Under the pieces are notes generated by a model that had not been told where the DNA came from, ran no database searches, and worked only from the letters and a program-made list of their open reading frames with translations. This document shows positions 1 through 64,000 of a DNA stretch of 64,000 nucleotides, piece after piece; position 1 is the stretch's first letter, and each line of letters starts with the position of its first letter. The position numbers and the translations under genes were made by a program. The DNA is from Physcia stellaris (taxonomy: Eukaryota > Ascomycota > Lecanoromycetes > Caliciales > Physciaceae), in assembly GCA_018902385.1 (NCBI GenBank), contig JABSSW010000001.1, forward strand, positions 1,240,001-1,304,000. The letters run 5' to 3'.

Positions 1-2
1 CT

Positions 3-22908: not shown

Positions 22909-22910
22909 TA

Positions 22911-23090: not shown

Positions 23091-23250
23091 CCATTCTCTT
23101 ACGATTTCTCAAGATGCCTTCGGTGAGAACAAGTCTTGTAAATCTGAGCTGTTTGAAAATAGCGCAATCCCAACCCTAATGAAGTTTTTGTGGATACATA
23201 TGATGCATTTCACCTTACAGCTTGACCAACTACAAGGTAAGTTATCGAGC

Positions 23251-34475: not shown

Positions 34476-34569
34476 TTCATGAGATTTCCAGCAATGGCAT
34501 GCATTGAAGTGTCTTCTAGTCATTGATGTGCATATCTACATGTGAGATATCGGCCGATCACAGTCAATT

Positions 34570-36669: not shown

Positions 36670-38178
<1,509 letters not shown>

Positions 38179-38357
38179 GCTTTGAAAGGGGGACCAATGG
38201 CGTCACGGTGTTGGACACAAAAAGTATTAGACGCTATAGATCCTGTACATTAGCAAACTCGCGACTGAGCGACGAGAAAACAACGGAGGAGAATGTATTG
38301 CGTACAACTTGCTTTTTATTATTTTCCTTCTAAGCTTTCTTAAGCTGTCATAGGGTA

Positions 38358-39755: not shown

Positions 39756-40289
39756 TCCTAGGAAGCAGGATCTGTAAAGTGATTATGGCGGGATTGACGT
39801 TCTAGTTATTCACTTGCAGACAGAAGAGGTACACACTGTGACATATAATATGCTTGGAAAATGGCACGAAGTGATGAGGGCTGGGGGGTATGACGAAATT
39901 CGTCATTGCCGAGAGGCCTAGACCCTGAGCAAGTCGGAGTAGATATCTACAGTATTATTTCAACTCTTGGGTTCTACATCTTTACTTCGATCTTCCCTTT
40001 ACTTTGCAAACCTCTTTTAGATCAAGTCAGACTCTGCGGCTCGAAGCTTCTCCCCAGCTTGTCTGCGAAGCCCCCAGATTAATCGCACAAAGTGAGCAAT
40101 CATGGTAGGCAACCAATTTTCTTTGATCAGTGTACCACTATGGCTGGCCTCACAAACGCAAGCTTCTTTGCGAGCCTTCTTTCGTTTGTCGCCAATGCCA
40201 ACACCGTCATGTTTATGTTCTAGGAGCCTATGCTCCATACATCGAATCGAGCTCAAGCTAACAAAGCGTATCAGTTCAATCCAGGCTTC
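39756..40289. promoter_or_regulatory. divergent promoter region of LIN1 and UFD1
   Basis: This region lies between LIN1 (-) and UFD1 (+) and should contain both promoters. A 5' untranslated exon or short intron of UFD1 is possible, since the reading frame of UFD1 stays open to 40230 without family character. Confidence 0.5.
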
Positions 40290-41375
40290 ATGGATGAAGA
40301 CGGCATGATGGGTGGAATGTACCAACCATCCATGCTTCGCCGGATGGGTGCAGGTCAGCCTGCCGCTCGCTTCGACGAGTATTATCGCTGCTATCCTGTG
40401 GTCATGCTTCCAGGGCCTGAGCGAGAAAACGTCAACCACGGAGGAAAGGTCATGATGCCCCCAAGCGCTCTCGATAAACTTACACGACTTCACATCACAT
40501 ACCCGATGCTGTTTGAGCTGATCAACGGACACAAGGAGAAGATGACGCACGCAGGTGTACTGGAGTTTATTGCAGAAGAAGGAAAGATCTACCTGCCATA
40601 CTGGCTGATGCAGACTCTTGATCTCGACCCTGGAGACCTTGTCCAGGTTAAGTCCACTGATCTACCTTCTGGCCGTTTTATCAAGCTTCAAGCACAGTCA
40701 ACGTCTTTCCTTGACATCTCTGATCCAAAAGCTGTCCTCGAGCAAGCTTTCCGCAATTTCTCCTGCCTGACAAAAGGCGATGTCTTCACCTTCCCTTACA
40801 ATGATGAGATATACGAGATGGCAGTTTTAGAAACCAAGCCAGGAGGCGAAGGTACCAAAAACGCCATAAGTGTGATCGAGACAGATCTAGAGGTGGATTT
40901 TGCCCCACCTGTAGGCTATGAGGAGCCCAAGAGGAGTGGTACCAGCACGCCAGCAACAGGGCGAGGGATGGGCGGTGGAATGCTACACAGTGCAGGTTCA
41001 ATGGCGCAAGCGATCAACTACGCTTCAATAGCTCCAACATCGTCCAGCGCCGCTGCAGGCGCAAAAGCTGTATCCTCAAACTTCTTACTAGGCGGACAAA
41101 AGCTAAAAAGCGGTAAACCTATTACGCCCAAAGCCTCCACTCCTGTGGCTGGTGCTTCAACCAATCCACCACCGACGACGAGGAGAACGAATGGACCGCA
41201 GCCACTTCGATTGCCCCCTGGGAAGCTCTTCTTTGGCTATGAGATTAAGCCTCTGAAGAAGAAGGATGGGGGACAACAAGTCGCGGACGATTCGAAGCCG
41301 CAGTTTCAGGGTCAAGGCCAATCATTAAGAAATACAAAGAAGAAGCGTCCTGAAGATGACGGGAAGGGGAAATAA
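40290..41375 (+). CDS. UFD1: ubiquitin fusion degradation protein 1 (UFD1)
   Basis: Cofactor that, with Npl4, directs the Cdc48/p97 ATPase to ubiquitinated proteins, for example in ER-associated degradation. From the ATG at 40290 it has 361 residues in one exon. The N-terminal double-psi barrel and alpha/beta roll show FDEYYRCYPVVMLPG, NHGGKVMMPPSALDKLTRLH, YPMLFELIN, THAGVLEFIAEEGKIYLPYW and MMQ-like MQTLDLDPGDLVQV. FLDISDPKAVLEQAFRNFSC and LTKGDVFTF continue the domain up to IETDLEVDFAPPVGYEEP near 210. The C-terminal part is Ser/Thr/Pro-rich, with the conserved LPPGKLFFGYEIKPLKKK and a basic tail, where Cdc48 and Npl4 bind. The in-frame ATG at 40230 is less likely, since fungal relatives begin near MDEDGMMGGMY. 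Confidence 0.95.
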   Translation: MDEDGMMGGMYQPSMLRRMGAGQPAARFDEYYRCYPVVMLPGPERENVNHGGKVMMPPSALDKLTRLHITYPMLFELINGHKEKMTHAGVLEFIAEEGKIYLPYWLMQTLDLDPGDLVQVKSTDLPSGRFIKLQAQSTSFLDISDPKAVLEQAFRNFSCLTKGDVFTFPYNDEIYEMAVLETKPGGEGTKNAISVIETDLEVDFAPPVGYEEPKRSGTSTPATGRGMGGGMLHSAGSMAQAINYASIAPTSSSAAAGAKAVSSNFLLGGQKLKSGKPITPKASTPVAGASTNPPPTTRRTNGPQPLRLPPGKLFFGYEIKPLKKKDGGQQVADDSKPQFQGQGQSLRNTKKKRPEDDGKGK

Positions 41376-41983
41376 GCGGCTAACCAAAGGTGGATAGGTA
41401 ATTGGGAGTGGGAGAGATAACATATGAGCCGTAAAAGTCGATGACTAGGTACCAGCATTTTCCGTGGCGAGGCGTTGGCGGATTGCAGGGCGTTGCATTA
41501 GGAGGCCGGTCTAACCCGGGCTTATCAAATACCCAAGTTAGTCCTTACGAATTAACAGCATTATGCACGGTAATAGAAGAGTCTCATTGGTCTACTTAGT
41601 ACACGCAACATCACTCCGGCTATACTGCACTGGAATGAACGACGTTTTGATTGTTAGCTTGGTAAAGGGTTTGTTACCAAACTGGTAAGTCTGCTGCCAG
41701 ATTTGGCGAGACATTCACGACTTTCTTGCCATCACTTAGGGCTTGCTATCGTCTAAAATTGAGGGCTGTTCAACCTTTTCAAACGCAAATGTTACTATGC
41801 AATAGAACATACTGGGTAAATTCCTCCGACGTTTGCAACACCATCACGAGCATACTCGTCTCCAGTTATGAAGACCGTCTGCCAGCATCCGCTGCTAGAA
41901 GCTGCATGCCCCCTATTCCCTTCGATCCATCTTTTTCCTTGTTGCCAGAATTGTACTCAATGGAGAGGGGAGGACACAAGGGC
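41376..41983. other. intergenic region between convergent genes
   Basis: This gap lies between the UFD1 stop (+) and the Myb-like gene stop (-). The reading frames here are shadows or lack domains, and I see nothing else. Confidence 0.5.
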
Positions 41984-43021
41984 TCAGCCGACGACCTCAT
42001 AACCCTCATACGCGTTCTCCTCATCAGCGTCGTCCTCAACACTAGCGTGTACAACTTGTTTGTCCTCAGTATTCTCCTTGGCGTTCTTCTTAGATTTAGC
42101 ACCGCGAACCGGAGCCGCGACATCAGCACCTTCTGCAATCTCCTTCTTGACTTCGGTCTTGTTCTTCTCCGCAGCAAGTTTGAGCTTCTTCGAGATGGCT
42201 TTGGCACGCGCAGATGTGGGCATAGGAAATTCGGCAGGTTTCTTCTTGTCGCCTTCGTCATTCGCGGCGGCACTGACTTCGTTCTCCTCCTCCATCTTCT
42301 CGACGCTCTTCAACTCAACACCATCATCACTCTCCCCATCACCCTCTTCTTCGACACGCTTACGCTTTCCCGAACCCTTGGCCGATTTTCCAGCTTTAGC
42401 TTTGGCAGCAGCGCGATGTGTGGCTAAAGTAACCTTCCCGTCGGGAGTGGTGGATTTGTTCACAGGGGTGTACCCATCAGCGGCATCTATGGCTTTGCGC
42501 TCACGAACCAGCTTAGACATACGCTCCATGATAGCCTTGGGCGTCGCATCTAACGTATGTCAGCGAGCCTCATCAAGCAAGGTTCACACAAGCATACTGG
42601 GAATCTTTGCGGCGATATGCCCAAAATCGACGTCTTTGGGTGTTGTTGTGATCAGCCACAACATCATCTGGGGCCCTCTTGTCAATAATTTTTCTTGTGA
42701 TGGTACAGTGACTAGCGGTCTTACCTTCCTATCCACCTCTGGAGTCCAAGACTAAGAGAAAAGGATCAGCAAAGTTGCGTAAGATTGTGAACGACACAGA
42801 GAAAAACACTATCGCCTGACTGTGAAATATCCAAAGGGACTTCCATCACAGCTAATATGTATAGTGATTCAGCTTCCCGGGATGGAATTTGAAAAATGCC
42901 GAGGGATCCCAACGCTGCGAGTGTCATCTGGCTGAGAGGTATCTGATGCTCTGGTATCGAGATATATACGAAAGTAGAGGTGAAGTATTCTGAGAATACT
43001 TACTACTCGACTGCCCGACAT
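41984..43021 (-). CDS. small Myb/SANT-like nuclear protein, function unknown
   Basis: The folded part reads SWTPEVDRKMMLWLITTT, DVDFGHIAAKIPNATPKAI and MERMSKLVRERKA across two introns, a Myb/SANT-like helix-turn-helix pattern (Trp at the start, hydrophobic spacing, AAK turn) common in uncharacterised fungal proteins. The remaining 170 residues are Lys/Glu/Ala-rich with nuclear-localisation-like KKRK runs (GSGKRKRVEEE) and no domain. It is probably nuclear and DNA- or chromatin-binding. The start is uncertain: ATG at 43021 with a strong GTAAGT donor after six codons, or ATG at 42848, both feeding the same conserved exon through a weak donor. This is the last ordinary gene before the AT-rich block, whose edge lies about 600 bp upstream. 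Confidence 0.6.
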
Positions 43022-43620
43022 GATAACAACGATTTAGTGATAGACTAGGTGTTGTGCTCGAGCTTTGTCGCTGAATTATATCAGCCACCGGACTCTCAGA
43101 AATGATTTGGAATCTTACTGAAGCTGTTGATTCTTTGGTCGACTGGTGAGAAGAGAGTTGGTCACGGGTAATAAGTCCTCTTTGCTTGTCCCACGATGAC
43201 TTAGCGAGGAAGTAGTAGATGGAAGAGGAAAAGGCTGTTGGGGAAGATTCGATTCATGGTTGCACATATGTTACGGATATGAATCTGTTATTCCATTGAC
43301 TATTCCTAATGACGTGAATGACCACTAATAAATCATATTCACCTTCCCGTCCACTGGCAGTATCATTCACACGTCCTCTTTTCTCTGACATGTTCTCAAC
43401 AAGGAAGACGCCTATATAGACTCATCTAATAGTGAAAATGAGATTTTGACAACATGAGCTATTTACTAAGTACTTTAGGTAATAGGATCGTGTGGAGTAG
43501 ACCTAGGAGAAAGAGAGTATTCTCGCTCTTGCGGCTCATCATTCTTCACAAAGAGTACTGAAGCTCTTGTCACTGATGAATGAAAATCAATGACTAGAAT
43601 CAGAATGCATTGTATGATAA
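43022..43620. other. gene-side flank of the AT-rich block
   Basis: Ordinary composition with normal CC, CT, AG and GG content. It should include the promoter of the Myb-like gene. No other gene is seen. It ends in a run of A at about 43620-43633, where the AT-rich block begins. Confidence 0.5.
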
Positions 43621-44680
43621 AAAAAAAAAAAAAGTTTTTGATAATCAAATGATCACTTATGCTATTGTTAAATTAAATTAATTGAAAAAAATGCATTTTG
43701 CATTTCATCAATTCACATAATAACAAAAAAAAATCTACGATTTCGTAAATAGTTTCGAAATAATCATCGAAATGTGTGTAATTTCAATATTCAATTTTTT
43801 AAATTTGATCGATTAGAATTCGTAATTTCGATTCATTTATAATTCATAATTTTTCATCGTTTTATCATCGTTTCGTTCGTCAATTTGTTGAAATTTTTTT
43901 TGAAAAAATTGTAATTCGTGATTAAATTAATTTTCATTTTTTGTTTAATTTCATTGATTTGTCGATCAATTTGTGATTGATTTAATATGAATTCAACATT
44001 TTTTCAATTTGTTTTTTTTTCAATTTTTTGAAACGTTGTTTTTTGAATTGTTGTTCAATTTTTGTTTTTCATGTATTTTGTTTGATTTTCAAATATTTTG
44101 TTCAATATTTTTTCGATCATTCGTTTTTCATTTTGATTTTCGTCGCAAACGTAATCATGATTATAATTTTAATTTCGAATTCAAAATTGCATTTTGAACA
44201 TTGACATGAATGCGCGTTTATCAAAATCAAAAAATTGAATGATATTTTTTTTGACGATTTAAATTGATTTTTCAATTTTATATAACATCGATCGCATTTC
44301 ATGTGAATGATTTTTGATTCAATTTCATTGAAATGATCGTGCATTTTTTTATTTTCATTCGTGATTTCGTCATCGATTTTCATAACATTTTTGATTTTTT
44401 CGTTGTTCGTGATCATGATTTTTGAAATAAAAAAATTCAACATTTTGTCAATGATATAACAAACATCGAAAATTATCGTTTTGTTATCGATGATTTGTTG
44501 ATTAAATTGCGAAACATAATTTTCATAAATTAAGAAATTTTTTTTTTAATGAATTCGCATATTTTCGTCAACATGTTAACATTGTGAATCAAATTAATGT
44601 TCGTTAATTGAAAATCATTTTTCAAAAAAACGAAATCGATTAAAAAATCGTGAATTATTTTCGTCAATCGTATTTTTTCG
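43621..44680. repeat. AT-rich hypermutated fossil sequence, left of the nested elements
   Basis: Strongly AT-rich with the same missing dinucleotides as the rest of the block. Frames on the minus strand (44117-44443) contain Cys pairs (CDRC, CSKC) that recall a zinc-binding segment, but no family can be named. It is likely part of an older repeat into which the + strand gypsy element inserted, because the same style of sequence continues on the far side from 58947. It is broken and non-coding now. Confidence 0.6.
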
Positions 44681-44685
44681 ACAAC
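44681..44685 (+). other. target site duplication, left (ACAAC)
   Basis: The five bases ACAAC immediately before the left LTR are repeated exactly after the right LTR at 58942-58946. This is the expected length of a Ty3/gypsy target duplication and fixes the ends of the outer element. Confidence 0.88.
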
Positions 44686-44857
44686 TGTTATGAGCAGTCT
44701 AGTCATCAGAATATTTGTTTGAAACAAACTTTCTGATTTACTGATCATTTAGTCAATCGGCGTGATCGACTTATGTAATTATTGTGATATATACTTGAAT
44801 TTTCGATCGTAATTAGCTAATTCAGTTTTTTATTTTTTCACATACTTGTTTCTAGCA
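44686..44857 (+). repeat. left LTR of the outer gypsy element
   Basis: 172 bp, TG...CA ends, aligning without gaps to the right LTR. All differences between the two are transitions. Confidence 0.9.
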
Positions 44858-47800
44858 ATATGATAACATCATCAATTATCATCAGTCGATTTGCATCATC
44901 GCTAGCAAATCATCATATCGCAAGTTTTTTTCATTGTAAATATTTCAATTAATCAAATCATCAATTTTTCAATTTTTTTCGATGTTTTGCATCGTTGCGT
45001 TAAATTACGTCATCGATTCGTCATTCGATGTACTTTTTCAGTCACGCGTTTGTCAAATGAAATTTGACGTCGTTCAAATCTTATTGAATTCTTGTTTTTC
45101 TCGCTTTTCTTTTTTTTTTCAACTTTTCTATTTTTCTGTTTCAATTACATCTCATTTCATCTTTGAAATCACTCTCATTTGACTCTTTGAGAAATTTTTC
45201 ACATTTTTCAAATTGACGAGTCGTTTGTTTTCAATTGTTATTGATATTGTTTTCGATTTTCGTCGATTTTTGAATTTTAATCATCGATACGTTCGTGAAA
45301 TCAACGAAAATATCAAACAACTGATTGTCGTCATAATTTTTGTTAATCAATCATTTGTTTTGTCAATTTTCAATTTTCGAATCATTTTTAAAAACTCGAA
45401 ATTCATTGATTATTTTTCGAAATGAATCATCGATATCATCAAATTTCGACGAGATATTCAAATTTTTCGAAACGTTACAACAGCATATCGATTTTCACAA
45501 ACTTATTTGAATTTTTTGAAATTTAAACACGCGTTTAATTCAATCATCAATGATTTTTCATCAAACGTTCGTTCATCGATAATTTCACGAAATCAACGAT
45601 TTCATCGTTTTTTTGAAAAGCAATTCATACGTGTGTCGAATTTTTCATCGTTTACGTCAAATTTTTTTTCTCGTCGAATAACGATCAACTTTTCGTTGAA
45701 CAATCAATTAATTATTTCACATTTGAAACGTCAATTGTCGAAACATTCGATTCGTTCAATTCAATCAATATTCGAAAAATTTCGATCGAAAAAAACATTT
45801 ACACACATTTTATAAATTTTAATTCAATGATTAACGTTTTTGATTCGAATTTTCAAATTGTCATTGCAACAATCGTCACGCAAATCGTCATTTCAATCAT
45901 CAATGATTTTCGATTTGAAATTCGACAAATGCGAGAATTTGCTGATCAATCAAGACAGCAAGACGAGTTTGAATCGTCAGATTCATCAAACGAAATTGAC
46001 GAAAACGCTGACGAAAACGAAAATGTTGACGAAAATTTTTACGACACATTTTTTTGACGTTCGAAAAAATTAAATTTTTTTGATTTTCATTTGTCAATTT
46101 TTTTTGAATCAAATTTCATGATCAAAAATGACAAAAACATCGTTTATCGTAATGTGCATTTTTTTTGCGAACGAATTCGAAATTTGATCGTTATTAAAAA
46201 ACAAAAATTGATTCGCATCAATTTCAATATTTGTATGATGGATACAGCGTTTATTTGATACATTTCGAAATTGAAAATTTTAAAACGTGTTGATTTTCGT
46301 AATCTCGATTTGAAAAAAAATTGAATCAAAAAATTTAAATTACGTTTCAAATCAAATCATTTTGTTGTCATCAATGTTTTCATCGTCGAACGTTACACGA
46401 TAATCGACGTTCGTAATGAACGTGAATCATTCGATTACATTCAGCAAATCGTTAGTCACGCTATGAACGTCAATTTTCAGAATACGCATCAACAATTCAT
46501 TTGAGTCTGAAAAAATTTCGATTTTAATTTAAAACGAGATATTTCGACGCTTAGCGAAATCATCTCGCTCATTGACTTTCTGAACATAATGAAAAATCGA
46601 AAGAAAATTTGACAAAAAATTTATACACGCGAAAATGATCGAGACGATCGTATTAATGATCGTCGTTTTAATCGTCAAATTAATAAATTCATTTCTCGAC
46701 AAAATGACAATCGTGACGATTATCAGTCGTTCGATGATTTTTACGCTTTTTATTTTTATTATTTTTTTTCTGATTATTATTCAAATCAAAATTCAATTTA
46801 CAATAATCAAAAATATCAATATCGCAATTACGATCGACAATCAAACGACGTCAAAAATCAACAAATTATTTTCGTTTCGATTTTCAATTTGTTTGCTGTT
46901 CGTCAATTTTTACGTATAATCAGCGAAAACGCGTCAAATTTCAAAAATCAAATCAGCAATTCGAAATCAAACGTTGAAAAAAAAAATAACAATCAACAAC
47001 GTGACGACAAGATTAAAATTTATGTAATCGACGAAAAAAATGAAAAACAATTTGAGAAAATATTTTTCAATCGAAAAAACATGAATATCACGTCGAAAAC
47101 GAGAATTTAAATTATTATGATCAAAATAATTATTCGAAAGAAAATGAAATGTCAGTAAATTTCATTTCGTTTGTTTTGATTAAAGTTTTTCAATCACGTT
47201 GTCGTCATTGCAAAAAATTTTCACATTTAACAATGTATTGCATAATCATTTGCGCGTTGATTGTAATTATTTGAATTCGATTGCGATTGTCGAATCGAAA
47301 TTTCAAAATGTCAATAATTTTATCGAAATCTATTTCATCGTAATTTTCATTGTCGAAATCATCAAAAGTCAGTCTAATCAATCTGATCAATTTATTTCGA
47401 TTTCTATTTTTATTCGATTCAATGTTGATTCGACTTTCGAATTGAACATTGATTACGAATTTAAAGATTGAAATTACATTAAGACACAAATTTCGTTGTT
47501 TTCAACGATTAAATCAAGAAATATTTGCATGAACATTGACGCAAACGTCATTCTCGTCGATCGTGTCTTTTACAAGAAACAAATATCAAAAAATACAATA
47601 CGTACAATGACTATTTCACTGAAAATACGCGAATTAGATACGAATCGACACGAAAACTGAAAATACGTCATTTGTGACATTTATTTTGTTGACATTAAAG
47701 TTAAAAATGACAAGTCAATCATTTTCGTGTTACGTCGAGAAATTCATTTAATGAATAATTTCAAAGTCAACATGTTTATAGACAACGACGTGCTTGATTT

Positions 47801-50800
47801 CGAAAATATTATCATAAATTCGATCAAGAAACAAATTCATATTATTAGCATTGATGTCATCATATCGCTGAATATTCGATCGTCAAAAATTTCAATTCAG
47901 CGATTCGTGCATATTCGCAAGATTACAATGATTTCATCACAATTCGAAATGATTGTAATCATACATCACACGACGTTATTCGCAAATAAAGATTTTCTAT
48001 TCGAATTTGCAAACGATATCAATTTCACGTTGTATGTTCATTTAATAAACGTTTTCACGTTTGTTGTTTTTGTTCGCAATGATCGAAATCAGACTATTCA
48101 AATTTTTCGTAATTTTCGACTAAATCGAATATCGAAACTTGACTTTTCTAATGTCTTTCAAATCGATATCGAGAACGTTGATCAAATTAAACATTTAACA
48201 ATTAAAAAAATCAAAATTCACACATCAAAACGATTGATTCAAAAAATTTTTGACAATTTGCGTTACAATTTATATCGTTGTCGTCATCATGAAATTTGCT
48301 GACATCAATGCAATCAATATTGACGTAATTAACGTTGATTTAATTAATGTTAATTTGTTTATTTTAATCGTATTATTGATATCGTCGATAACGAATTTTT
48401 CGATTGAATCATTATCGATTTCGTCAAAAATTTCACAGATTGTCGAATTCGTGCTTTTTAATGAAATTATCATATATCAATTTGAAATTATCGATTCGTT
48501 CATTAAAATTGTGAAAAACTTTTTCAATTTGTGACAAAACATCGATTTCGTCAAAATTTTTGAACAAAATTGAATGCGCATTTCATTAAAATTTGATTGA
48601 AAAAATCGAATGTTTGACAAAATCAAAATATACTCGTTGAAAATTAAAAATAAAAAATTGATAAATAAAATTTTTGACGAATTGCACGTCGTCGACAAAA
48701 TGTTTTGAATCAACGAATTCACATTTTTTTTATTCAATATTTTGTGTTTGAAAATTAAACGCAAATAATCAGCGAAAAAAACGTATCGTTATCGATATTA
48801 AAAATTTGAACGTTATCACACAATCGAATGTTTATTTTTTATCGTTTCAAAGCGAAATTATCGTCGCTGTTCGACATTGTAATTACATTTCGATAATTGA
48901 TTGTTTCGTTTTTTTTATCAATGACGTGTTCATTCGTCAAATCGACACAAATTCACGATAATGAATCATAAAAATCAAGAAAGTTTTAACGTAATCGTCA
49001 TGAAATTCAAAAACTCGTCGACATACGTGTAACGTCAAATTGATCGATTGTTTCGTCAGCACAAAATTTACGTTCGTGTTTACGTTGATGATATCGTGAT
49101 ATTTTCACGTATCAAGAAAAAACACGAAGTTCATTTTCGTGTCGTGTTTCAAATTTTCAAAAAGAACAACGTATCAATAAAATTTATCAAGACTTTTTTC
49201 GATTATTCGTCGATTTCACTTCTAAATCAAAAAATGAATTTTTTAAATTTAATCATTGCAATCGAAAAACTCAAAATCATCGTTAAATTGCGCTTTTCGA
49301 TCAATTTACGTCAATTGAAATTTTATTTAAATTTCATTGATTGAATGCGCGATTACATATCGTTTTACGTTGACATAAACAAATTTTTACAAAAACGAAA
49401 AATCGTCATGTTTCGTCATGATTTTTCGATTGACAACGTTCGTCGAACTTATGTTTTCAAAATTCGTTTGAATAAATTTTTCGAATTGAAAATCATTTTT
49501 TTTAAAATTTTACAAAATTTATTTTCGAAATTTTCATATTTAATTCATTCAAATAGCAGTCGACGTTTCTTTATCGATTTAAATGTTAACAAAAAGTTCG
49601 ATTTCGACGTCATGCTATATTACGTAAAAAATTTTTTTCAATCAATTTATGTCAAATCAATTTTCATCACGTCATGTCATTGAAGTCGATATTTTTTTTC
49701 AATCGATTTTTGACATCAATTGAAACGCGTTATTGATCAATCGAATTCGAAATAATTGAAATTGTATGAATACTTAAAAAAGTTCGTCACATCATCGAGA
49801 CTGACAGTACATTCGCTGACAAAATCGTCATTTACATCGATCACGATGCAGTTTTAAACATAACTAATCAGACATCGTTTATCATTTCGTTCACGAACAA
49901 GTTTAATTTTCGTTTGATCAAAATTTCTGATTATATTCAGCGATTTGATCTGAATATTCGTCATAAATCAGATAAGCAGCACATTGTGCTTGACGTTCTG
50001 TTTAAATTGATTAGCGATAACATCAATGTCTCTGATCACAACGACGAAAAACTGAACGCTTTATTTACAGTTTCGCTAATAGAAATGAGATTTGTCTTTA
50101 AGCAACGTATATTGAATGAATACAAATCAAATTTCAATTGACAACGCATTTTCAGTCAACTTGACGTCGAAATCAGCAACGAAGTCGCTGCAAAACTATC
50201 TTTTTATAAAAAAAAACGAATTTATTTTTCGTTTCGATGATTTCATTACAAAAAATCATGTTTACGAATCACGTAAATTTTGCATATTTCATTCGATCGT
50301 ACAAAACATTCTCGAGCTAATTCATAACGATGATCATTTTGATTATGTTAAATGTTTCGAACATATAATTTCTTCGTGATACATTCGCGATTTATCACGC
50401 TATTTAAAAGATTATTTGAAACATTGTTCGAAATGTCAAATGTATCAAATCAGACGTCACGCATCATATAAATTCATGCAATTTATTTTTACGTCGATTA
50501 TATCTTTTCACATTATTACGATGAATTTCATTTTGATTTTGTCATTTTTTGAAGAGAGTTTTGATATTGCATTTTCGATTATCGACAAATTCATCAAGCG
50601 AATGATCGTAATGTCAAACAAAAAAATTTGATTTGCTGATCAATGAAGCGAGACTTTGTTGAAACGATTAAACATAATCGATTGAAATTTTCTCAAAGTC
50701 ATCATATCAGATAGAAATAAAAAGTTTTTATTCGAATTGTGAACGACTATTTTCAAGAAATTAAACGTCAAATTGTTTTATTTCACAATTTATCATTTTC

Positions 50801-50904
50801 AAACGAATGATCAATCGAAACGAACGAATCAAATCGTCGAAATAATTTTGCGATTTCATCTGATTACTATGAAAAATTCAACTCAATGATCAAAAGTGTT
50901 TTTT

Positions 50905-51140
50905 ATCATGAGTCGTGCTTGAATAAACGTATTATTGACTAGCTAAACGAAGACAATAAGTTTGCAAAAGCAAGTAAATACAAAATGATGAAATTGCAAA
51001 CAGTGTGCGAACGTCAAGTCTCAAATCACGCTAATTTCGTCAGAAAATTAAAACATAATTCGATTCAGACATATCTGTCTAATCATTTATCATATCAATT
51101 ATTTATCTGTCTGATTTATCTGTCAGACATGTTCGTAACA
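50905..51140 (-). repeat. 3' LTR of the inner gypsy element (left on the map)
   Basis: 236 bp, ungapped match to 57428-57663. On the minus strand it begins TGTTACGAACATG. Confidence 0.9.
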
Positions 51141-54100
51141 CTATTTTTTTTTTTTCGCGAACGTCGTTTCGACGATTCGTTGTTGTTTCGAAATTTGAAA
51201 ATTTCGTTGAAAATTTTGTTAATCAATTCGTATGATTGCAAAATTCAGAAATTTCACGATCATCATTTTTCACTTTTTAGTGCTTTATTGTCATTTCAAC
51301 GCTCGATAAGATTTGACGACAATTTCTGAAAATGTTTTTGACACGATTCAGCTCTCTATGCGATGTAAATTTTGACTGTAAATAACATCGAAATGATAAT
51401 AAGAGCTGAATTGTTGAATAAAGATCGTGAAATCAAAAGCGAATGAATGAACATTGAATTCGTGATTTCAAATGTTAATTGAAAATAGTTTCGATTAATG
51501 TCAACATGACGATTTTTTTTCGAAAACGACGACGATTCGTTGAAAAATTTGATTCACTGACGACGATTTGAAATATTGAAATCAACGTTTTGAACGATTT
51601 TGAACTTGCTGTCGTGAAATGATTACGATGAAAATCGTTTATCACATCGCGAACATTATCGAATTTTTCGTTGTCGACATAGTATCACGTTCGATCATGA
51701 AATCAGTTCGATCAATTGACACGATATTGAAAACGATTGTAATGATATCGAAATTTCAAAATATCGTTCATTTCTCATTCGGAATTTTCGTTGACTATGA
51801 CGAAATCAAAAAATTCATTGATTTGATTTTCGAGTGAATCACGAAGATTTTTGCGCAGAAATCAACAGTGAAAAACATCGTAAATACGCATGATTTCAAG
51901 CAATTCGAGTCGATAAAAATTGCTCATACGTTGTAATATTTTGTAGAGATTTAGTTTTTTGTCATCGAATTTGTCAGACGATTTGATCGTTTTGATGTTT
52001 CGTCGATCGAAAAAAACGAAATTTTTTTCGACGTATTTTACGATTTTTCGATGTTTGTTGACTTGAATTGTCATACGTTTTTGAGTTATTTTTGCATGAT
52101 TTCGTACGTAATTAAGAATATTTTGCATCGTGTCGATAATATTCTTTGTTTTGACGATCAGAAGTCGCTTTTTCGTTGTAACATACGAAATAAAATCTGA
52201 TGAAAAACTCATACGAAAATGAAAGTTCTTATTGATGAAAAATGATGATAATTTTGTTGTTGCAAATATCGCGTTGTTGTTTGCAAATTCGATCATGAAT
52301 AATCAAACGTTTCAATCGTTTTGCATGTAATTGCAATATTGTCGCAATTGTTTTTCGATATTCTGATTGATTTTCTCGATTTGTTCATCGATTTCTGAAT
52401 GAAAAGCGATGAAAAACTTACATTTGATGTCGAGAATTTTGCAGAAAGCTTGTCAAACGAGCGATATGAATTGAAGTTTTCGATTTGACGTTATAAAAAA
52501 AAATAATTCATGCGTACGAAACACGTAATTGATAAATATTTTGATCGTGATTTTCGCATTTGTATTTTCATCGTCGACGATGCAAAACACGTAATGGCGT
52601 TTTTTATTAAATTTGTCGATTATCGTGCAAATGACGTTATGATCGTGAACGTCGAACAATTCGATGATAAAATTCATGAATATGTCGATTCAACGTTGCA
52701 AAGAAATGATCAAAGAAATAAATAAGTCATTTTTTCGATTTCGAAAGATTTTCGTACGTTGACATTCATGACAATTGCGTACGTATCGACGAACGAATTT
52801 GCGCATGTTGAATCAATAATAATCGCGACGTATAAAATTTTTCATACGATTGAAATCTGAATGTTTCGAAATCGAAAATTCATGAATTTCTTTGAGAAAG
52901 TCAACGAATAAAAAAACGTCGACAAACATTCATAGTCGATCATTTCGATATAAAATATCGTTTTTTTCATTGCAATTTCGTAAGTCGATTTCGTTCATTG
53001 ATGTGAAATTTTGTTCGATGATTTCACGATATGTCGTGCAATCATCGTCAGTTTTATTGACAATCAAAATTCGTTCGTAAATAAATTCGTCAGATTTTAT
53101 CGCGTGAATTTCGAGTCGTTTTGAAATGAACAATATTTGTTTTCGATATTGATGTCGTTCATCAGTTTCGTTTTTGAATCGAAAATCAAACATACGAATC
53201 AGAACATTTGTTTTAACGTTTTGAATTTCGAATTGAAATTGAATGACAATGTTAAATTTCGAGAGAATTTTTGTTCAACGAGTTTGACGAGAAATGAGTT
53301 TCTTTGACGTCATGAAAATTTTCAGTTCTTTGTGATCGATGAAGATTTTGATCGATTTTTCGATGTTTTCGAGTTCAAAACGTCAATGTTTTAGACAGCG
53401 AATGATGATTAATAACTTTTTGTCATAAATTTCGTAATTGCATTCGGTTGAAATCATGTTGCGACTGTAAAAAGTAACGAGATGCAACATTTTTTCGTCG
53501 TCATATTGAGATAACACTTTTGCATTGACGTAATCAAAAAAGTCGATTTTCAAAATGATTTGTTTTGTTCGATCGTAATGTCGTAATATGAAAGTTTTCG
53601 TCACTGTTTTCTTGAGAAAATTGAAAACTTTTTCGATTTTTTCAGTTCATTCGAAATTCACAAATTTCTTGATCATTCGGATGAAAACTCGAGTTTTTTT
53701 CGAAAAGTCACGAATGAATCGTTTGTAAAAATTGACGAAACTCACGAAAATTTGTATTTTTTTCAGATTCGTAAAACGTTTTCAATTGACAATGATTTTT
53801 ATTTTTTCGAATTCATGCGAAAGTCATTTATCGATAATATGACGTTTAGAAATGTCATTTTTTCTTGAAGAACTCGCATTTCTCAATATTCATTTGTAAT
53901 TCGACTTTTTTGAATCTTTTCAATATTTTACGAACGTGAACGATGTGTTTCTTTTTGAATTTGCTGTAAATGAAAATATCATTTAAATAGATTTGACAGA
54001 AATCGTTCAAAAAATTGAATAACAAATCGTTCATGTAATGCTGTCAATTCGCGAGTTCGTTGATCAATTCGAAAGATAACATTCGATATTTGTACGATTT

Positions 54101-57100
54101 CATGAAAATAACGAACGTGATAAATTTTTCATTTTTTTCATTCATTCGAAACTTGTTGAAAATCGATATGATATTCAGTTTGATCAAATATTTGCAATTT
54201 TGCATTTTAGCTAAAGTTTTTTCGATCAAGAAAATGAAATATCGATTGCGTTTCGTGATGTGATTAAGTCGTCGATAATTCACACACAAACGTAATTGAT
54301 CATTTGATTTGATTGCAAATAAAACGAACGAAACGTATGTTGTTTGATTGAGTACGATGAAATTTTTCTGAAAATTATTTTTCAAGTATTTTTTGAATTT
54401 CTGAAATTTGAATTCGAACAAAGAATATATTCGATTTCGAAACAATGTACTGTTATCGTTTAAAAATTCGATTTTGTGATCGTAAATTCGATGCGACGAC
54501 AATTCAATTGTTTTTTGAAAATCGAATATTTTTGACAAATGTCTGAAATATTTCGATATTTTTTTTATTATACGTTCAAGAATCGATTTGATTTGTTCGT
54601 GTTTCAGAATTTTTTTGATCATGACGACAATTTTCAACGATTCAAGATTTGTTCGCAATGTTTTGAATGCGAAGTCGATTTGATTGATCGTAATGAAAAA
54701 ACATTGCATTTTTTGTTTTCGATTTTTGAAGTCGACGAATAAGCAAAAAAAAATCGCATCAATTATCGCGATATTCATCGAATCGTCTGAGTTCAACTTT
54801 GAAAATGAAAAAATTTCGAATTGTTGTTTTTTGACTTTTCAACGTTTGTTGCGTTGTTTTTTCAAGTTTTTTTTTTTGACGAACGTCGCTTTCGTAATTG
54901 CTGTGATATCAATTTTTGAATGATTTGATTCAATGACGAACGACTCGTCATTTTGATCGACTTTCGAGTGAGTGAAACAATCGAAACATTTTGAATCGAA
55001 TATTTTTGATTCGTCTTGTACATAAGACGCTGAGAAATTAAATTGCGAACGAAATAGAATCGTATATCGAAATTTTATTGTAGCAATATGTTTCGCGTTA
55101 TTTGTTTTCGATAAAGAGACATCGCGACGTCAACTAGATACGTTTCATCGACGATTTGAATCAGGAATTTTCAAACGTCGAATTTGCATTGTTTTGATGA
55201 ATATATTGTCATGATGATTACATTTGAATGATTTGAAAATCAATTTATCGTAAATCATATTCAAAATAATTTTATGCTTGTTCATTCACGATTTTTTTAA
55301 AATTATCGAATGATTGTTCAGATCGATGATAAACAAAGAAATTGTCAACTCGAAATACAAATCAATTGTCAGTTTGAAATAAATGACATGAATTATTGAA
55401 AAAATCTGACGATCGTCGAATTCAGTAATGAGCTTCGATTTCAATAGGAATACGAAATTCATGTTCAGCATGTTGCATACAAATTGCGCAATTTCTTTAT
55501 CAATGAAAACATAATCAATTGCATCAATGTTTATTAAAGTTTTTAGTTTATGTTTATTATCGTTGAATGACAACGTACAATTGATGATTAAAAATCGTTT
55601 GACAAAAAAATCAAACAATTCGTCATGATGAGTAGAGAAAATTTTTAAACATTCATCAATCGCGTTTTTGATGTGAGTTATCAGTTTTTCGAATCAAACT
55701 CGTTCGATTCGTTAATCATGTTCATGTAAAACATTTGCATCTTGTGTCAATGACGCTTTTGATGTTTGTGAACGTTCGAACACTTTTTTTATACGTGATC
55801 GATTTCATCGCAAGTGAAACATTTGTTCGTAACGATCAACTTGTCAATCATCGAGTCACGAATCTTGATTTCAACGTTGAGATGAAAATGAATTGCAAAT
55901 TTCGCGAAAGAAATCGAAATAACAAATTTCACAAAAAACATCGAAATCGAAACGACAAAAATTGATTTGAATTGAGACAATTCAAAACGTTGTTGACGAA
56001 TCGCGATTTTTTCTTTTCGAAAACTCGATTGTCGATTGTATATTTGTTGCAAAATGATTCGGATTTTATCGAACGTGATAAACTCGCGAAAATATACATT
56101 CATCGTTTTTTTCAGATTTCAGAAGATTTTATTCATTAATTTTTCGATCTTGATGACTTCGCTGTAATCGATTGAATTGCTAAGACGAAAAAAAATGAAA
56201 TAAAAAAACTGAAAGTTGTGTGTATTCATGATCAATGTTCGGAATTGAATACGCATATTGCGTTTGAAATCAGAATTTTCGAAAATGAAATTCAGAAATT
56301 TCAACATCATGTGTCAATTTTTGAAATGATTCATGTCGATATCACGTATCGATTGTATGTGATTATCGACATCATTTTCAGTTCAATCAATCACAATGAT
56401 GATTGCGATCATGTTCGTATCGTAATGATCAACGTTGATCGTCATTTTATCATGCATTTTTGTTTTTCAAATTCGTCAAGTAAATTTCATTTCGTCGATG
56501 AATTTAGAAAAATCTGAATGAATTTTCGAGCGTCGTTTGCTTTTATTGAAAAAATTAATTACGTTGATTTCGTCGTCGTTTTTTTCATCGTCGTCGTCAA
56601 GATTTCGTGTACGATCGCGAGTCGTGACTAACAAAACGTCGTGATTTTTCTTGAGAAAAATGTAATCGTGTTGTTTGATTAAAAGTCGATCACGCGTTTG
56701 TTCGTAATTGATTTTCAATGTATTCATTTTTTTACGAATTTCATCGAATTCAGCGTTTGTGTTGATCAGCTCATCACGATCGACGCTGACGATATTGTAC
56801 AAATTTTGATACTGAATCAGAACGTTCAGATAGTTGTCACGATCGATGCGTAATCGATCAAATTCTTTCAAAAAATCGATGACTTTTTGATTGACTCATC
56901 ATTTCAGTTGATCGATGATGACAATGTTCAAAAAATGAATGATTTCATTATTTTTCATTTTTATGAATTCGATCGTTGAAACAAATCGACGACGTTTGAA
57001 CTGTTCGACGAAATTCTCGTCGAGAAAATTGTCATTGATTTCATGCAACATACGATTCACATTGAAACGTAGCGTTTTGAGACGTTGTTTCATCGAAGTA

Positions 57101-57427
57101 AAAAATTCGAAAAAAGTTGTTTCGTGATGACTTCGAATCATGTCTAGAAATGAAGAGTTGAAAAATGATAAAAGAAAAAAAATTAATCGAATCAGTTTTC
57201 GTTTTTTCGTCGTCTTTTATCGTCGAAGATATCGTCGTTTGCGTGAAAATTCGGCTTGTTATTTCACGATTTTCGTCAAGTGTCTCGTCAGAAGAACTTT
57301 TGATCGTTTGTCTGATCAACAAGACTTTTCGTCGTTTGTTTCGTCAAAAAAACTTGATCGATTTGAAGTTTTATTTTTGAACGTTCGCGTATCACGACGA
57401 GCGATAGAATTGGAAATTTATTGTAAT

Positions 57428-57663
57428 ATCATGAGTCGTGCTTGAATAGACGTATTATTGATTAGCTAAACGAAAACAATAAATCTGCAGAAACAAATAA
57501 ATACAAAATGATGAAATTGCAAACAGTGTGCGAACGTCAAATTTCAAATCACGCTAATTTCGTCAGAAAATTAAAACATAATTCGATTCAGACATATCTG
57601 TCTAATCATTTATCATATCAATTATCTATCTGTCTGATTTATCTGTCAGACATGTTCGTAACA
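57428..57663 (-). repeat. 5' LTR of the inner gypsy element (right on the map)
   Basis: 236 bp, ungapped partner of 50905-51140. The outer element resumes directly after it. Confidence 0.9.
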
Positions 57664-58769
57664 TTTTTCAAAATTCAGCGTCATATCAATAATGTCAACT
57701 TTTCTGTCATTGACAAAAATTCAAACGAAACTGTTTATGATTTCACTCTTTTGCAAATCGCTGATTTGTGAAAATTTTTCGCAAATTTTATCGTCGTCGT
57801 CGTCGATGCAAATTCATCGTTATCGTTTGACATTTTCATCGACGTCAATTTCTCATTCGTGATTAAAATTCGAATAAAAATAACAAATTTCATAATTTTC
57901 GCTCAAATGAAAATTAAACGACATTATGACGACAAGCACAAATCAATTTACATGCGCGAAAAAGATTACGTTTTCATTAAATTACATCATGAATACGATA
58001 TATTTTCGACGACGATATTAAAATTCAAATTTAATCAACAATTCGCTGATTCGTTTCGCGTGTTAAAGCGAATGAAACGACTCGTTTATAAATTAAAATT
58101 ATTTTCTCATTGACGTATTTATTCGATATTATTCATTGTTCAATTAAAATCGATTTCTGTTTTTATCGAAAATTTTTTTAAAAAACATAAAATCGAATCG
58201 TTCGAGTTTATTTTCGTCGAAAACGACACGAATAAAATTAAGTTTTTCGAGATTGAACGATTAATGAACAAACGTCAAATTGCACGTCGTGATTCGAAAT
58301 ATCTGATACGTTGAAAAAACTGTGAATCAGAAAATGATGATTGAAAAAATTTTTTTGAATTAAACAACGTTCAAAATTTTGTCGACGATTACGAAAAAAT
58401 CAAACAACGAATTTTTATTCTTTTTGATCGATTAGCGATAAAAAACATTTCGATGATTTCAAAATCGATTAAAAAACGTAAATCAAAACGATTTTTCAAG
58501 AAGTTTTTTGCAATCATTTCGTCAACAATTGTATTCATTTCGTTCGTCGTTTCATCGTTTTCAATTGATCAGAAATTCGTCGTCGTTATTAGAAAATCTT
58601 TTTCAATTTTGAAGTTTTTCGCAATTATCGTCGTTGATTTTTCGATCGTTGATTTTTCGATTCGTCGTTCGTTTCGTTTGCTATTAAACAATGATGATAA
58701 TAAAATTTAAAATAATATGATTAAAATGACAATTGAAACAACGTTTTTTTCTTTTGATTGTGAACAAAT

Positions 58770-58941
58770 TGTTATGAACAGTCTAATCATCAAAACATCT
58801 GTTTGAAACAAACTTTTTGATTTATTGATCATTTAATCAATCGACGTGATCGATTTATGTAATTACTGTGATATATATTTGAGTTTTCGATCGTAATTAA
58901 CTAATTCAGTTTTTTATTTCTTCACATACTTGCTTCTAGCA
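58770..58941 (+). repeat. right LTR of the outer gypsy element
   Basis: 172 bp, partner of 44686-44857, followed by the second ACAAC. Confidence 0.9.
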
Positions 58942-58946
58942 ACAAC
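58942..58946 (+). other. target site duplication, right (ACAAC)
   Basis: Exact repeat of 44681-44685. Confidence 0.88.
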
Positions 58947-60650
58947 AATGTGTTTTTTTTTCGTTTTGATTTGATTTTTGATTATTGCATTTAAATTTTG
59001 TTTGAAATTGATCAAATAAATATAATAATTAATGAAATGAATTTTGTTTTCAACAACGAACAATTGATTTAATTTTAAATTTTGATTGAAATTTAGAAAT
59101 TTTGAAAATGCGACATTTGCAAATTCGATGAATAAATTAACATACGATTTAAATTTGATTTCGAACATTTCGTCGAATATTTTGATGAATACATTTTTCA
59201 AATGTTGATGAATTAAATTTCAAAAATGAATGATTTTTTTTTTCGATTTGAATTAATTGATAAATACATCGTGTTGAATTCACAACGAAAAATTACGAAC
59301 AAATTGATTTTCGAATTTCGTTAAAATTCAATTTTGATTATTTTGATCACATTTTTTTCGTGTGATGTTATTAATTTTTGTTTGTTAATCAATTTAATTC
59401 TTTTTTTGTTTAATTCAATTAATTTCGACTCGTTGATTCGTTTATGATTTTTTGTAAAAATTGATTTAAATGTGATTATTTTTTCGAAAATGTCGTTTTC
59501 GTCGTCAAGTAATTCGTCATTTTCAATTTTTTCGTTTTTGATGATTTGATTAATTTTTTTGCGATTTTTAATTTTGAATTGTAATTTCGAAAAAATAAAT
59601 AAATTTTGTTTTGTGAATTGTTTTCGTGTTTCGATACGTTTAATTTTTTTTCGATTTTTTTTGTTGTCAATTTCGATCAATACATTGATTTTATTGTCGA
59701 TCATTTTATTTGATTTATGTTAAAAAAATGTTTTGTAAAATCGTTAATGTATATCGTTTGAAACAATCGCGAAACAAAATTGTAAAAAAAACAAATTGTA
59801 AAAAAAACAAAGTGAAAATGTTTAATGAATTGCAAAATAAAAATTGAATAATTTCATCGCGATTAACAAACGCGTTAATTTCGATAAAAAAATGTTATAA
59901 CGAAAAACGAAATCGATTCGTATTCGTTGAAAAAAACGATAATGACGAAAAACGAAATCGATTCGTATTCGTTTGAAATTTTTATTTTTTTGTTAATTTA
60001 ACGTCATTGCGAACGATGTGTAATTTTTTTTTAATTGATAATCAGACATAATGTTCGTTGTTCAAATTTAATAATGATTCGTATATTGTCGTAAATTTCG
60101 TTAATCGAAATCAATAAATTTGTCAGAATTGATCGTTGATGATAAATTATAATATTATTGATATGATATTTTTTTGATTTTTTTTCGTGAATTGATTTGA
60201 TGTGAACGTTTTGTTTATAATAAATTTAATTTAATATTATACGAAATTTTAATCATTTCGATTTCAATTTTTTTTCATGTTATTTATCGATTTGATTATT
60301 TTTGATTAAAATTAAATCGTCAAAATTGAATATTTTTTGTTGTCGTTTTTTTTTTTTGATAATCATGAATATAATTGACTGTTTCGTTAATTAACAATTT
60401 GTTTTCTTTTTTTAGTGCGATATATATTTGATATTGATGAATTGACAAAAACTGTTCAACATTTGTTAAATTTGAAAAAATTATTGAATTTATATCGAAA
60501 TGATATTGTTTGAATTCAAATTTTAACATCAACATAATCGAAAAATAATTTAATGTTTTGATTGATTTAATATTCATTGTAAAAATGTGATTTCGAATAA
60601 ACAAAAATCACGAGTTTGTTGTTTCTCGATTTATACAATTTTTTGCAATA
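58947..60650. repeat. AT-rich hypermutated fossil sequence, right of the nested elements
   Basis: Same composition and missing dinucleotides as the left flank. Minus-strand frames (58914-59201, 59321-59704, 60320-60604) are Lys/Asn/Ile-rich and could be decayed gag-like or spacer sequence. I cannot assign a family. It probably represents the older repeat that received the outer gypsy element. Confidence 0.5.
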
Positions 60651-63600
60651 AAATTCAACATTTTTTGAATTGTTTTTTTCAAAAAATCAATCGATGAAAA
60701 ATGCGATATTGAATTTGTAAAATGATTAATGTCATGTTTCGTAAACATTGCGTTAACATCATTGTTAACGAAATGAAAATCATTGTCGATATACGTTTTT
60801 TTTGATCATTCGAAAATTGAACAAATATGTTTTCGTAAAAAATTTAACGTTTTCAAAACAATATGTGTACGATAAATTTTTGTTCAATTGAATTTGTTTC
60901 AATAATTTCGTTTTAAACAAACATATTGAGCATTTGTGATTGAACAAAAAAACGATATAAATTTTAATCAATTTAAATCGATCATGATCATTGATTGAAA
61001 ATGTTGAATGTTAAACGAAATACGTTGAATTGATTTTTTCAATCGACATTGACAAAAATGACAATTTTTACATCACTTTTCGATATTTTTTATTTTTGTA
61101 AATCAATAAATTCGTTTTATCAAAAAATCAAATGTTAAAATTGACGAGAAATGATCGTGATTTTCGTGAATTATTTTGAAAAATCGTGATATTTTTTTTT
61201 CGATTATGCAAATGTTATTTTTTTCGTTTGTTTTTTGATAAAATAAATGAATTGTGATAACGTGTGATAATAAAATGTAAACATTAATTTTATTTTCGAG
61301 AATTTTTATTTTTTTAATTGTTAATTTTTGTTTTTTCAAATTATTTGATTTTTTTTCGAAATATTTCATCAATTGATTATACATTGAAAAACGATAATAT
61401 TTATTCAATTTTTCAAATGACAAAATAAATAAAAATTTCGTTTTTCGTTTCATTTTTGATTTTTGTTCATTATTAATTTTAAATGAATGATCATGTTGTT
61501 CATCAAACAAATAAATGTTAAAATTTTGTAAATTCACATTTAACATTGACATAATTAAACGTTTTTTTTTCGAATAAATAATTACATTTTGCAATTTAAT
61601 GAACATTCGATTAAATTCATCGACAATATTTATATGTTGATTTTTATTGAATCGATGATGTAATTTGAAATCGAACTTTTTCAACATGTTTAATCATGAA
61701 ATTATTTTTTTTTTGTTTGTTTTGTGACGAACATTGATTTCAACGTTTCATGATCAATATATATCATTATTGAAAATTTGTTGTTCATGACTAATCATTT
61801 AATTTCGATTAAATTTTTCATTATAACATAACATTCACGTTCAAAATTCGAATATCGTGTTTTTGCGTCGTTCAAACGATAAAACAAAAACATGAACATT
61901 TTTTTATGAATTAACAATTTCGAAATAATTTCAATTTTTGTTTCAATATTTTGCAATTGAAATAAACAGATTTTCAATTTCGTTTCGTTAACATTCGTGA
62001 TCAAATAAAATTGAAATGTTAAATTTGTTTTTGTCATGACATTATTAATTATAATTTTTTTAATCGATTCGAATGTTTTTTGTTGATTTGTTTTTCAATC
62101 GAAAATATTTTTTTTACATATTTGCGTTGAATGATTGATCGTTTTATTCGAAACGTTTTATGTGATTTGATCAAATTTTCGTCGCATGATTTCATTTTTG
62201 TATCATGATTTTTTTTGAATTTGAATTCGTTTGACATCAACATGAAATAAATTTTTTTCATTTTTAACATTAATTTCGCTTTTTCGAATATAAAAATTCG
62301 TAAAAAAAACGTCAATCATAAAAACGCATTTAATTTTTTTCGATTTTTAAAAACAAATCAATTCAAAATTTTGTTGCGATGTTTGAAAATTGATTTCAAA
62401 TTTTTTGCATTTTTTTTCAAATTTTAAAAAATTTAATTTGTTCGAAAACAAATACGTTTTAAAATTAAATAAATACATTGAATCAAAAACACATTTGAAA
62501 AAATATTGAATGTGCAAAAAATTAAATAAAATTTCGTAATTTGTAATCGACGTTTCGTGATCATTCATAAACATTGCGAAAATTAATTCGTCATGATTAT
62601 TTATCATTGTAATTATTTTGATCACGTCGACGTCGTTAAATAACAAAAAATCAAATATCAAATTCGAAAATTGCGCATAAATAAACGATTTTTTTTTAAA
62701 ATTTTGATTCATTTTTAAATATATTCATTGATCGTTGAAAATAATAAATTCAATTTTATTTTTATTATTTTTTTTTATTGAAATCGCTCAATAATTATTT
62801 GTTGCGTTCGAACAAAAATAAATCGAAAATTTGAATTTCAAAAAAATAATTATAATTTTTTTCATGTGATGCATAAAATAAATTGATTTAATCGTGTATT
62901 TGTTAATGAATATAAAGTTATAAATTATTCGCAATAATTTTGATTTTTTTTTTTGAAAAAAAATTTGATTTTAATTTTTCATGAATTGTTTTTTTTGATT
63001 ATAATGTTTGCATTTTTTAATTTTGAAAAAATTCGATTTGCGAATTTTTTTTTTTGAAAATGTATTTAAATAACGTATTTCGAATTGATTTCGCATTCGA
63101 AATAAAATCGATTGAATGTTCAATAAAATTTGTAATTCGTATGTTTTTAATTGTCATCGCAAAACATTTTTTTCAAATGTAAATTAATCGTTTAATTTTA
63201 ATCATTTTTTTTTGTATTAGCGTTTAATTTTATAATAATTTCACTTTTTTCGAATCATTTTTCAATAACATTCATGTTTTCATTATTTAATTTTCGTTGC
63301 ATTGATTTTCTTTGCGTAAAAAAGTCATTTTTTGTATTTAACGAATATTTCGATAAAGAATAATCTGATATCGCAATCATAAAAATAAATATAATAATAA
63401 TTGTTATAAACGTTGTTGAATGTTGATTAAATATATTAAGATTTTTTTGATCAATTTTGCGACATTCACGATTCAACGAATGATCATTCGTTGAATACGT
63501 ATTCAATTTAATTGTTCATTTAAAAACAATTGACAAACAACGTCAATTAAATCGTTAATTTCGTCGTCGTTATTCATTTTTATCGTTGATAAATCAACAT

Positions 63601-64000
63601 GAATTGAAAAAATTTGAATTGACATTTTTCGTTTTTTTTTTCATTTTTTTCATTTATGATTATTTCGTTTGTGTCATAATGCGAATTAAAAATTATTTTT
63701 TTCATTCATGAAATGTTCAATAACAAATCATAAATTTGATTGTTCACGATATACGTTTTAATCACAATTTTTATTTTTTCGACATTGACAAAAAATACGA
63801 TGTAATTTGTGAACGTTTCAACGTGATTCGTGACTAAATTAATTCGAAAATAATCATTTGTTCGTACAAAAAATGCAAATTTCATGATTAAAAGTTTTTA
63901 ACGATTAATCAATTTCATCATCGATTTTTCATTTATCAATGTTTTTGACAATTTTACATTGTTTATTCAAAAAATAATCATCAAAAATTGTGATTGTTTA
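60651..64000 (-). mobile_element. third gypsy-like LTR retrotransposon fossil, running off the window
   Basis: Minus-strand remnants follow the gypsy order from right to left: reverse transcriptase-like segment about 62.7-62.3 kb, RNase H-like segment about 62.0-61.8 kb (ETRYSN-like RLNDAKTRYSNFERE), and a linker plus integrase start about 61.7-61.1 kb (FKLHHRFNKNQHINIVDEFN and ENHDHFSSILTFDFLIKR). No LTR was found for it within the window, and its upstream part lies beyond the right edge. It is more diverged than the other two, with many breaks. The 3' limit at 60651 is approximate. Confidence 0.65.

Follow-up and report, generated by a model that had tools for sequence, protein, structure and literature searches.

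Depletion of CpC and CpT in nested repeats of the lichen fungus Physcia stellaris and a probable, unusual RIP-like process

The repeat tract and its nested elements

Physcia stellaris, of the family Physciaceae in the order Caliciales, is an ascomycete that forms lichens. A 64,000-nt stretch of its genome assembly (contig C1, 1240001-1304000; assembly of 43.97 Mb in 147 contigs), here called the window, was analysed for a process resembling repeat-induced point mutation (RIP), and coordinates are those of the window unless a contig is named. The window joins a gene-bearing flank to a stack of three nested repeats (E3 inside E2, and E2 inside E1), in which cytosine is almost missing before C and scarce before T (CpC and CpT, together CpY) and is kept before A and G (CpA and CpG, together CpR). 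The features are as follows, with the strand given where one was assigned.

1..43600, unmutated gene-bearing flank used as control, 49.9% GC, dinucleotides near expectation; UFD1, RuvB-like/TIP49 and an AMP-binding/reductase gene are among its Pfam matches
43601..64000, CpY-hypermutated repeat tract, CC 0, GG 12, CT and AG depleted, CA and CG kept; mutation reaches the window end
43601..44682, left part of outer element E1 (oldest by nesting), with repeat matches elsewhere in the genome
44683..58942, middle element E2, lying within E1 and enclosing E3, bounded by a 176-base long terminal repeat (LTR) pair of 90% identity
44683..44858, left LTR of E2, from the LTR pair comparison
50904..57668, minus strand, inner element E3 (youngest by nesting), an LTR retrotransposon with a 242-base LTR pair, 95% identical
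50904..51145, LTR of E3, from the LTR pair and genome matches
54044..54796, minus strand, remnant of the E3 reverse-transcriptase (RT) frame, Pro 0, Gly 0, Trp 0, His 5, Gln 10, Cys 4
57427..57668, LTR of E3, from the LTR pair and genome matches
58767..58942, right LTR of E2, from the LTR pair comparison
58943..64000, continuation of E1, with repeat matches elsewhere in the genome

The dinucleotide counts from which the original prediction of a RIP-like process had started were reproduced exactly on recounting, both at 45301-45420 (CA 10, CG 5, CT 2, and no CC, AG or GG) and at 61501-61620 (CA 11, CG 3, and no CC, CT, AG or GG). Across 44001-64000, about 340 CC are expected from base composition alone and none is present, with GG at 12, CT at 274, AG at 318, CA at 1204 and CG at 1140, giving observed/expected ratios of 0.27 for CT, 0.34 for AG, 1.36 for CA, 3.18 for CG and 0.43 for TA. 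In the control at 1-43000, the ratios of CA, CC, CG and CT are 0.91-1.09. The border at 43600, the only one examined, is sharp, passing from normal to mutated sequence inside one 100-base bin.

The tested mutated stretches are repeats. Each of two E1 test kilobases matched five other genomic places at 88-93% identity over the full kilobase, and the first ~110 bases of E1 recur at contig position 1306466 (window ~66466, ~23 kb on) at 79% identity. The tested internal part of E2 had only diverged relatives elsewhere in the genome (65-69% identity), and the E3 LTR had 346 candidate genomic places, with identity at or above 89% in each of the 40 that were scored. The RT remnant of E3 at 54044..54796 by itself matched no Pfam family; an RVT_1 match was found at ~53849-54307 on the minus strand (E=4.9e-12), and reverse-transcriptase relatives were also found for the E3 frame.

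Leftover targets follow the nesting. CC+GG per kb is 0 in E1, 0.27 in E2 and 1.48 in E3 vs 121 in the flank, and CT+AG per kb is 6.5, 34.7 and 44.2 vs 128. CA+TG stays at 121, 122 and 128 vs 137, and twice CG at 82, 122 and 132 vs 113, being lower in E1 only. The order of insertion, as read from the nesting, is also the order of the leftover targets, so mutation continues after insertion, with CpC spent first, CpT next and CpA barely affected. As a side observation, the GpG left in E3 (50904-57668) is all on one strand (GG 10, CC 0); the process is strand-symmetric in the repeat family aligned below.

The two LTR pairs carry 13 and 17 differences (30 in total), 27 of them at CpT/ApG, one at CpC/GpG, one at CpA, and one a transversion. 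The context pattern claimed beforehand (25 of 27 differences at CpT/ApG) was thus confirmed, while the total of 27 and the statement that all were transitions were not. CpT dominates among these differences because CpC was already exhausted in both LTRs.

Target context, strand and genome-wide composition

Direction and context were read from alignments to an unmutated retroelement copy of 51% GC (L050), used as reference, to which 11 AT-rich family members were aligned over 1.5-3.5 kb each, with 176 gap columns across the 11 alignments. Of 9000 substitutions, tabulated over 16 triplet contexts, 8853 are transitions and 147 transversions, and 8593 are C-to-T or G-to-A. C-to-T change affected 4234 of 4340 CpC (0.976), 3922 of 4552 CpT (0.862), 302 of 4337 CpA (0.070) and 135 of 4018 CpG (0.034). 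A second family (L051 against the seven that aligned of 19 E3 loci, ~310 bases) gave 0.926, 0.825, 0.096 and 0.067 for CpC, CpT, CpA and CpG (background 0.033). Divergence is much greater in the third family (L064, 47% GC, against five of six relatives), which gave 0.803, 0.651, 0.222 and 0.173 (background 0.076). CpA is thus the main mutated context in none of the three families. The predicted CpY preference stands, but its wording as mainly CpT does not, CpC being the better target and CpT the second. The predicted retention of CpA and CpG is borne out both by their near-flank density in the tract and by the 7.0% and 3.4% changed in the L050 family.

Apart from the 3' neighbour, the surroundings matter little. 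Over positions -4 to +4, the CpT rate in the L050 family stays within 0.823-0.905 and that of CpC within 0.961-0.990; the one exception is 0.912 at the first C of CCC, where the neighbouring C turning to T first would be expected to spare it. Ultraviolet (UV) or other environmental damage at dipyrimidines, in a sun-exposed lichen, would also strike CpC and CpT, both being dipyrimidines. TpC is a dipyrimidine as well, yet 77 of 1155 TCA and 34 of 1134 TCG were changed, as against 1071 of 1085 ACC and 616 of 736 ACT, and the genes beside the tract are normal; on these rates and these genes UV damage was rejected, and its probability is close to nil.

Both strands are affected alike, as had been predicted, with CpC changed at 0.982 on the top and 0.971 on the bottom strand of the L050 family, and CpT at 0.865 and 0.860. 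Editing of retroelements by an APOBEC-like cytosine deaminase acting on single-stranded cDNA would suit the LTRs on two of the three elements and the many mutated loci that are retroelements. It would not give equal strands or a deciding neighbour on the 3' instead of the 5' side, and it is further opposed by LTRs of one insertion that later differ by the same type of change and by the heavier mutation of older insertions. Given no one-strand bias and no 5' context, cDNA editing was rejected as very improbable.

To sample composition genome-wide, 79 loci of the P. stellaris genome were cut into 477 windows of 500 bases, of which 475 were binned by GC content and two, at 60% GC or above, fell outside the bins. 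The loci were mostly fetched by repeat queries and also by gene queries, so they are not random and the genome share of mutated DNA is not readable from them; L005, L006, L035 and L036 overlap the 64,000-nt window, and a few of the 79 overlap each other. As GC falls from >50% to 20%, mean CC+GG per 500 bases, 70 at the GC-rich end, reaches 0, and CT+AG, 65 at that end, shrinks to 3-12, with CA+TG (53-69) and twice CG (36-67) roughly level. At most two CC+GG were found in 371 of 389 windows below 35% GC, in one of eight at 35-40%, and in none of 78 at 40-60%. CpC/CpT depletion in single-copy AT-rich DNA was not seen, a point weakly tested by these query-fetched loci (0 of 78 windows at 40-60% GC), and a mitochondrial AT-rich control sought via cox1 in the assembly was not found. 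The genome paper gives, in its passages, 43.3% GC (PMC7513301), and with genes at 50% and mutated DNA at ~27% this suggests that mutated DNA makes up roughly a quarter to a third of the genome.

Errors of assembly or base calling, or plain AT-richness, could be considered for such a pattern, the assembly being a Nanopore/Illumina hybrid at ~30x each according to passages of PMC7513301. Alignment lengths are conserved, however, CC is at normal levels in genes of this assembly, and proteins of other (ENA) data sets carry the protein signature described below. CpA and CpG are near full density, which drift towards AT would not allow. Artefact and drift were rejected on these grounds, and either is highly unlikely.

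A proposed CpY-specific mutator and its consequences

These observations are, with high probability, the work of a RIP-like, methyltransferase-linked mutator of long repeats in P. stellaris, specific for CpY and taking CpC before CpT. It would hit long repeats on both strands, reading the base 3' of the target C and recognising a pyrimidine there, best as CpC and at about half that rate as CpT, with CpA and CpG almost untouched. Repeated rounds would exhaust CpC and afterwards CpT, leaving C almost exclusively in front of purines. Loss of CpY alone would, by arithmetic, bring GC to a floor of ~25%, and 20-30% is observed. Proteins would be disabled via TGG to TGA and by loss of the Pro (CCN) and Gly (GGN) codons, and by analogy with Neurospora the process may run in the sexual cycle.

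The codons agree with this in the L050 family. Within a 321-codon frame of L050, the 11 copies kept none of 229 aligned Pro codons, none of 242 Gly and none of 77 Trp; His, Gln and Cys codons mostly survived, at 73/77, 121/132 and 42/44. Of 79 new stops in these copies, 73 are TGG to TGA, and the RT stretches of 26 loci contain 49 TGA, three TAA and one TAG; RIP of the CpA type would be expected to favour TAA and TAG instead.

Some results weigh against this explanation. After sites changed in at least 60% of the L050-family copies were removed (these include fixed differences), 4.9% of CpA were changed vs 0.95% of CpG and a T-to-C/A-to-G background of 0.36%; weak CpA activity is possible. Two RT copies of 52-53% GC, whose open frames measure 1024 and 1151 aa (L051, contig C5, 1165021-1168497, and L052, contig C12, 58812-62288), are 95% identical over 3.5 kb, yet are essentially unmutated, leaning only slightly towards CpY. 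Their 175 differences, 42 of them transversions, are mostly ordinary divergence, and CpY accounts for 74 of the 122 transitions of clear context. Either repetition alone is not always a trigger, or these copies arrived recently. On the supporting side, the 119-base 5S genes, with 9 CC and 9 GG each, are unmutated in the four loci read out of eight matches (three copies identical, one differing at one base). This is as expected of a RIP length threshold, which is mentioned in a passage of PMC2621366, and might also be due to selection.

A wider protein search was made with the RT remnant of the window, a query that favours Pro/Gly-poor matches, and the best 120 of 273 proteins found were examined. 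Of the 88 proteins known from ENA/lgn sources alone, 58 contain neither Pro nor Gly, as do 8 of the 32 with jgi/ncbi sources, and mean His+Gln+Cys is 6.7% (ENA/lgn) and 7.9% (jgi/ncbi) vs 7.2% in the L050 frame. This shows that the Pro/Gly-free signature is present in other data sets, its spread not being measurable from so biased a query. Separately, 21 of the 32 jgi/ncbi RT-like proteins (within P0179-P0237) have at most 1% Pro+Gly with normal His/Gln, a few of the 32 represent clusters of 32-77 sequences, and these proteins hint at CpC-type repeat mutation in other fungi.

Methyltransferase genes and known repeat-mutation systems

Profile searching of the genome with PF00145 gave three loci at E <= 0.001, one DIM-2-like (L002) and two RID-class (L003 and L001), and no further match at that threshold; the classes were assigned from sequence motifs, from the similarity of L002 to 9bap and from a tree. 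L002 is an uninterrupted open frame of 1118 aa, 1009 aa of it inside the fetched locus, whose end truncates it, and matches the solved C5-methyltransferase 9bap, which is Neurospora DIM-2 (E=2e-181). L003 (P0001, contig C5), the canonical RID-class gene, has PPCQ and EQT motifs, the latter a mark of RID, groups with named proteins from lichens, and shows a 99% match to the P. stellaris hypothetical protein G7Y79_00005g016670. L001 (contig C6, 790057-794028) keeps PPCQ, has EET, and seems to be interrupted by an intron following 'IAS'. The tree comprised 44 core domains, from 42 of the 237 proteins found and from two P. stellaris genes. In it, L003 lies in a 20-row clade including lichen and Xylona proteins, and L001 in a separate nine-row clade with support 100/100, the named members of which are only from Physcia and Heterodermia.

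From the gene set, the activity probably sits in one of the two RID-class enzymes, L003 or L001, which would then have a changed recognition of the 3' base. DIM-2 could instead be the mutator, methylating CpY in silenced repeats, the methylcytosines then deaminating in a burst or slowly over many mitotic generations. Such a role would fit the long uninterrupted frame of L002, the 'all CpN contexts, CpT preference' given in part of a 2026 review (PMC13297926), and a passage of PMC11969663 in which RIP of older repeats in Neurospora is abolished only by a double knock-out of RID and DIM-2. Zymoseptoria Dim2, on the other hand, methylates CG > CA > CC, leaves CT nearly alone, and increases C-to-T change at CA, the opposite preference (passages of PMC8016269), and a described DIM-2 sparing both CpA and CpG was not found in the literature covered, which leaves DIM-2 as an unlikely mutator.

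RIP is generally described as CpA-directed, and classic RIP raises TpA/ApT. The RIP-like mutator proposed for P. stellaris resembles the classic process of Neurospora and other Pezizomycotina in its both-strand C-to-T/G-to-A transitions in repeats, repeated rounds, sharp edge, sparing of short repeats (5S, with selection as the alternative), and RID and DIM-2 homologues. In contrast to classic RIP, C is retained in CpA and CpG and lost from CpC and CpT, and mean TpA/ApT is not raised (0.42 in the tract vs 0.66 in the flank). Calling the process RIP-like and unusual was therefore apt, in that features of RIP were found as far as tested, apart from the unmutated long copies L051 and L052, and a CpA preference clearly was not. 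Two sets of standard RIP indices were computed, the 0.89/1.03 rule and the stricter RIPper cut-offs, and none of 39 1-kb stretches of the window and none of 189 AT-rich locus stretches passed either set. The 0.89/1.03 rule was used as given in PMC3897900.

MIP in Ascobolus targets CpG. CpG/TCG-type repeat mutation is given for basidiomycetes in passages of PMC4352252; these CpG-type systems are likewise repeat-directed and use DNMT1-family enzymes, but their target, CpG, is changed at no more than 3.4% in the L050 family. RIP has a CpT component in Magnaporthe oryzae, Botrytis, Sclerotinia, Colletotrichum truncatum and Anisogramma, where CpT-to-TpT is among the leading changes, and is the first change in M. 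oryzae and one Botrytis strain according to passages of PMC4352252, PMC6180176 and PMC10998396. The same passages give two rid copies for Anisogramma, as there are two RID-class genes in Physcia. In the parts of these sources that bear on it, however, CpA is also a target in all of these species, and TpA/ApT in C. truncatum is 0.93-1.68; the word CpC is absent from the main texts of the three papers. For Stagonospora nodorum repeats, a passage of PMC2621366 lists CpC/GpG depletion beside dominant CpA.

Among Lecanoromycetes, RIP in Cladonia rangiformis, as described in passages of PMC12542154, is alike in bimodal GC, sharp edges, less mutated later elements in nests, and RID and DIM-2 homologues. 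It is called there by GC below 35%, with 'dinucleotide', 'CpA' and 'CpC' absent from the main text, and its GC peak of ~16% is below the floor expected from CpY alone. A published figure legend, the part of that source used here, places lecanoromycetes among classes with enriched non-coding k-mers. A repeat-mutation analysis was not found in the passages of the P. stellaris genome paper (PMC7513301), and neither CpY-only nor CpC-led RIP was found in the literature searched, from which subscription journals were mostly absent, so an earlier report could exist. As a tentative extension, CpY-directed RIP might be a second, purine-sparing type of RIP in several fungal lineages beyond Physcia, overlooked so far since the usual indices register loss of CpA, and acting in Caliciales via the divergent second RID-class enzyme of the L001 clade, with a swappable reader of the 3' base.

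The P. stellaris pattern amounts to a nearly saturated, highly specific repeat mutation of another kind, invisible to CpA-based indices, and it allows tests of which feature of RID/DIM-2-type enzymes recognises the 3' base and of the extent to which RIP has been overlooked. The CpY/CpR ratio is a cheap detector, with a mean of 1.01 in the flank vs 0.12-0.13 in mutated DNA; among proteins, long frames that lack Pro, Gly and Trp serve the same purpose. Within the unmutated flank, a frame at 23251-26151 is a nonribosomal peptide synthetase (NRPS)-like reductase, in which an AMP-binding and a NAD-binding (male sterility) domain are accompanied by a weak match to a carrier domain.

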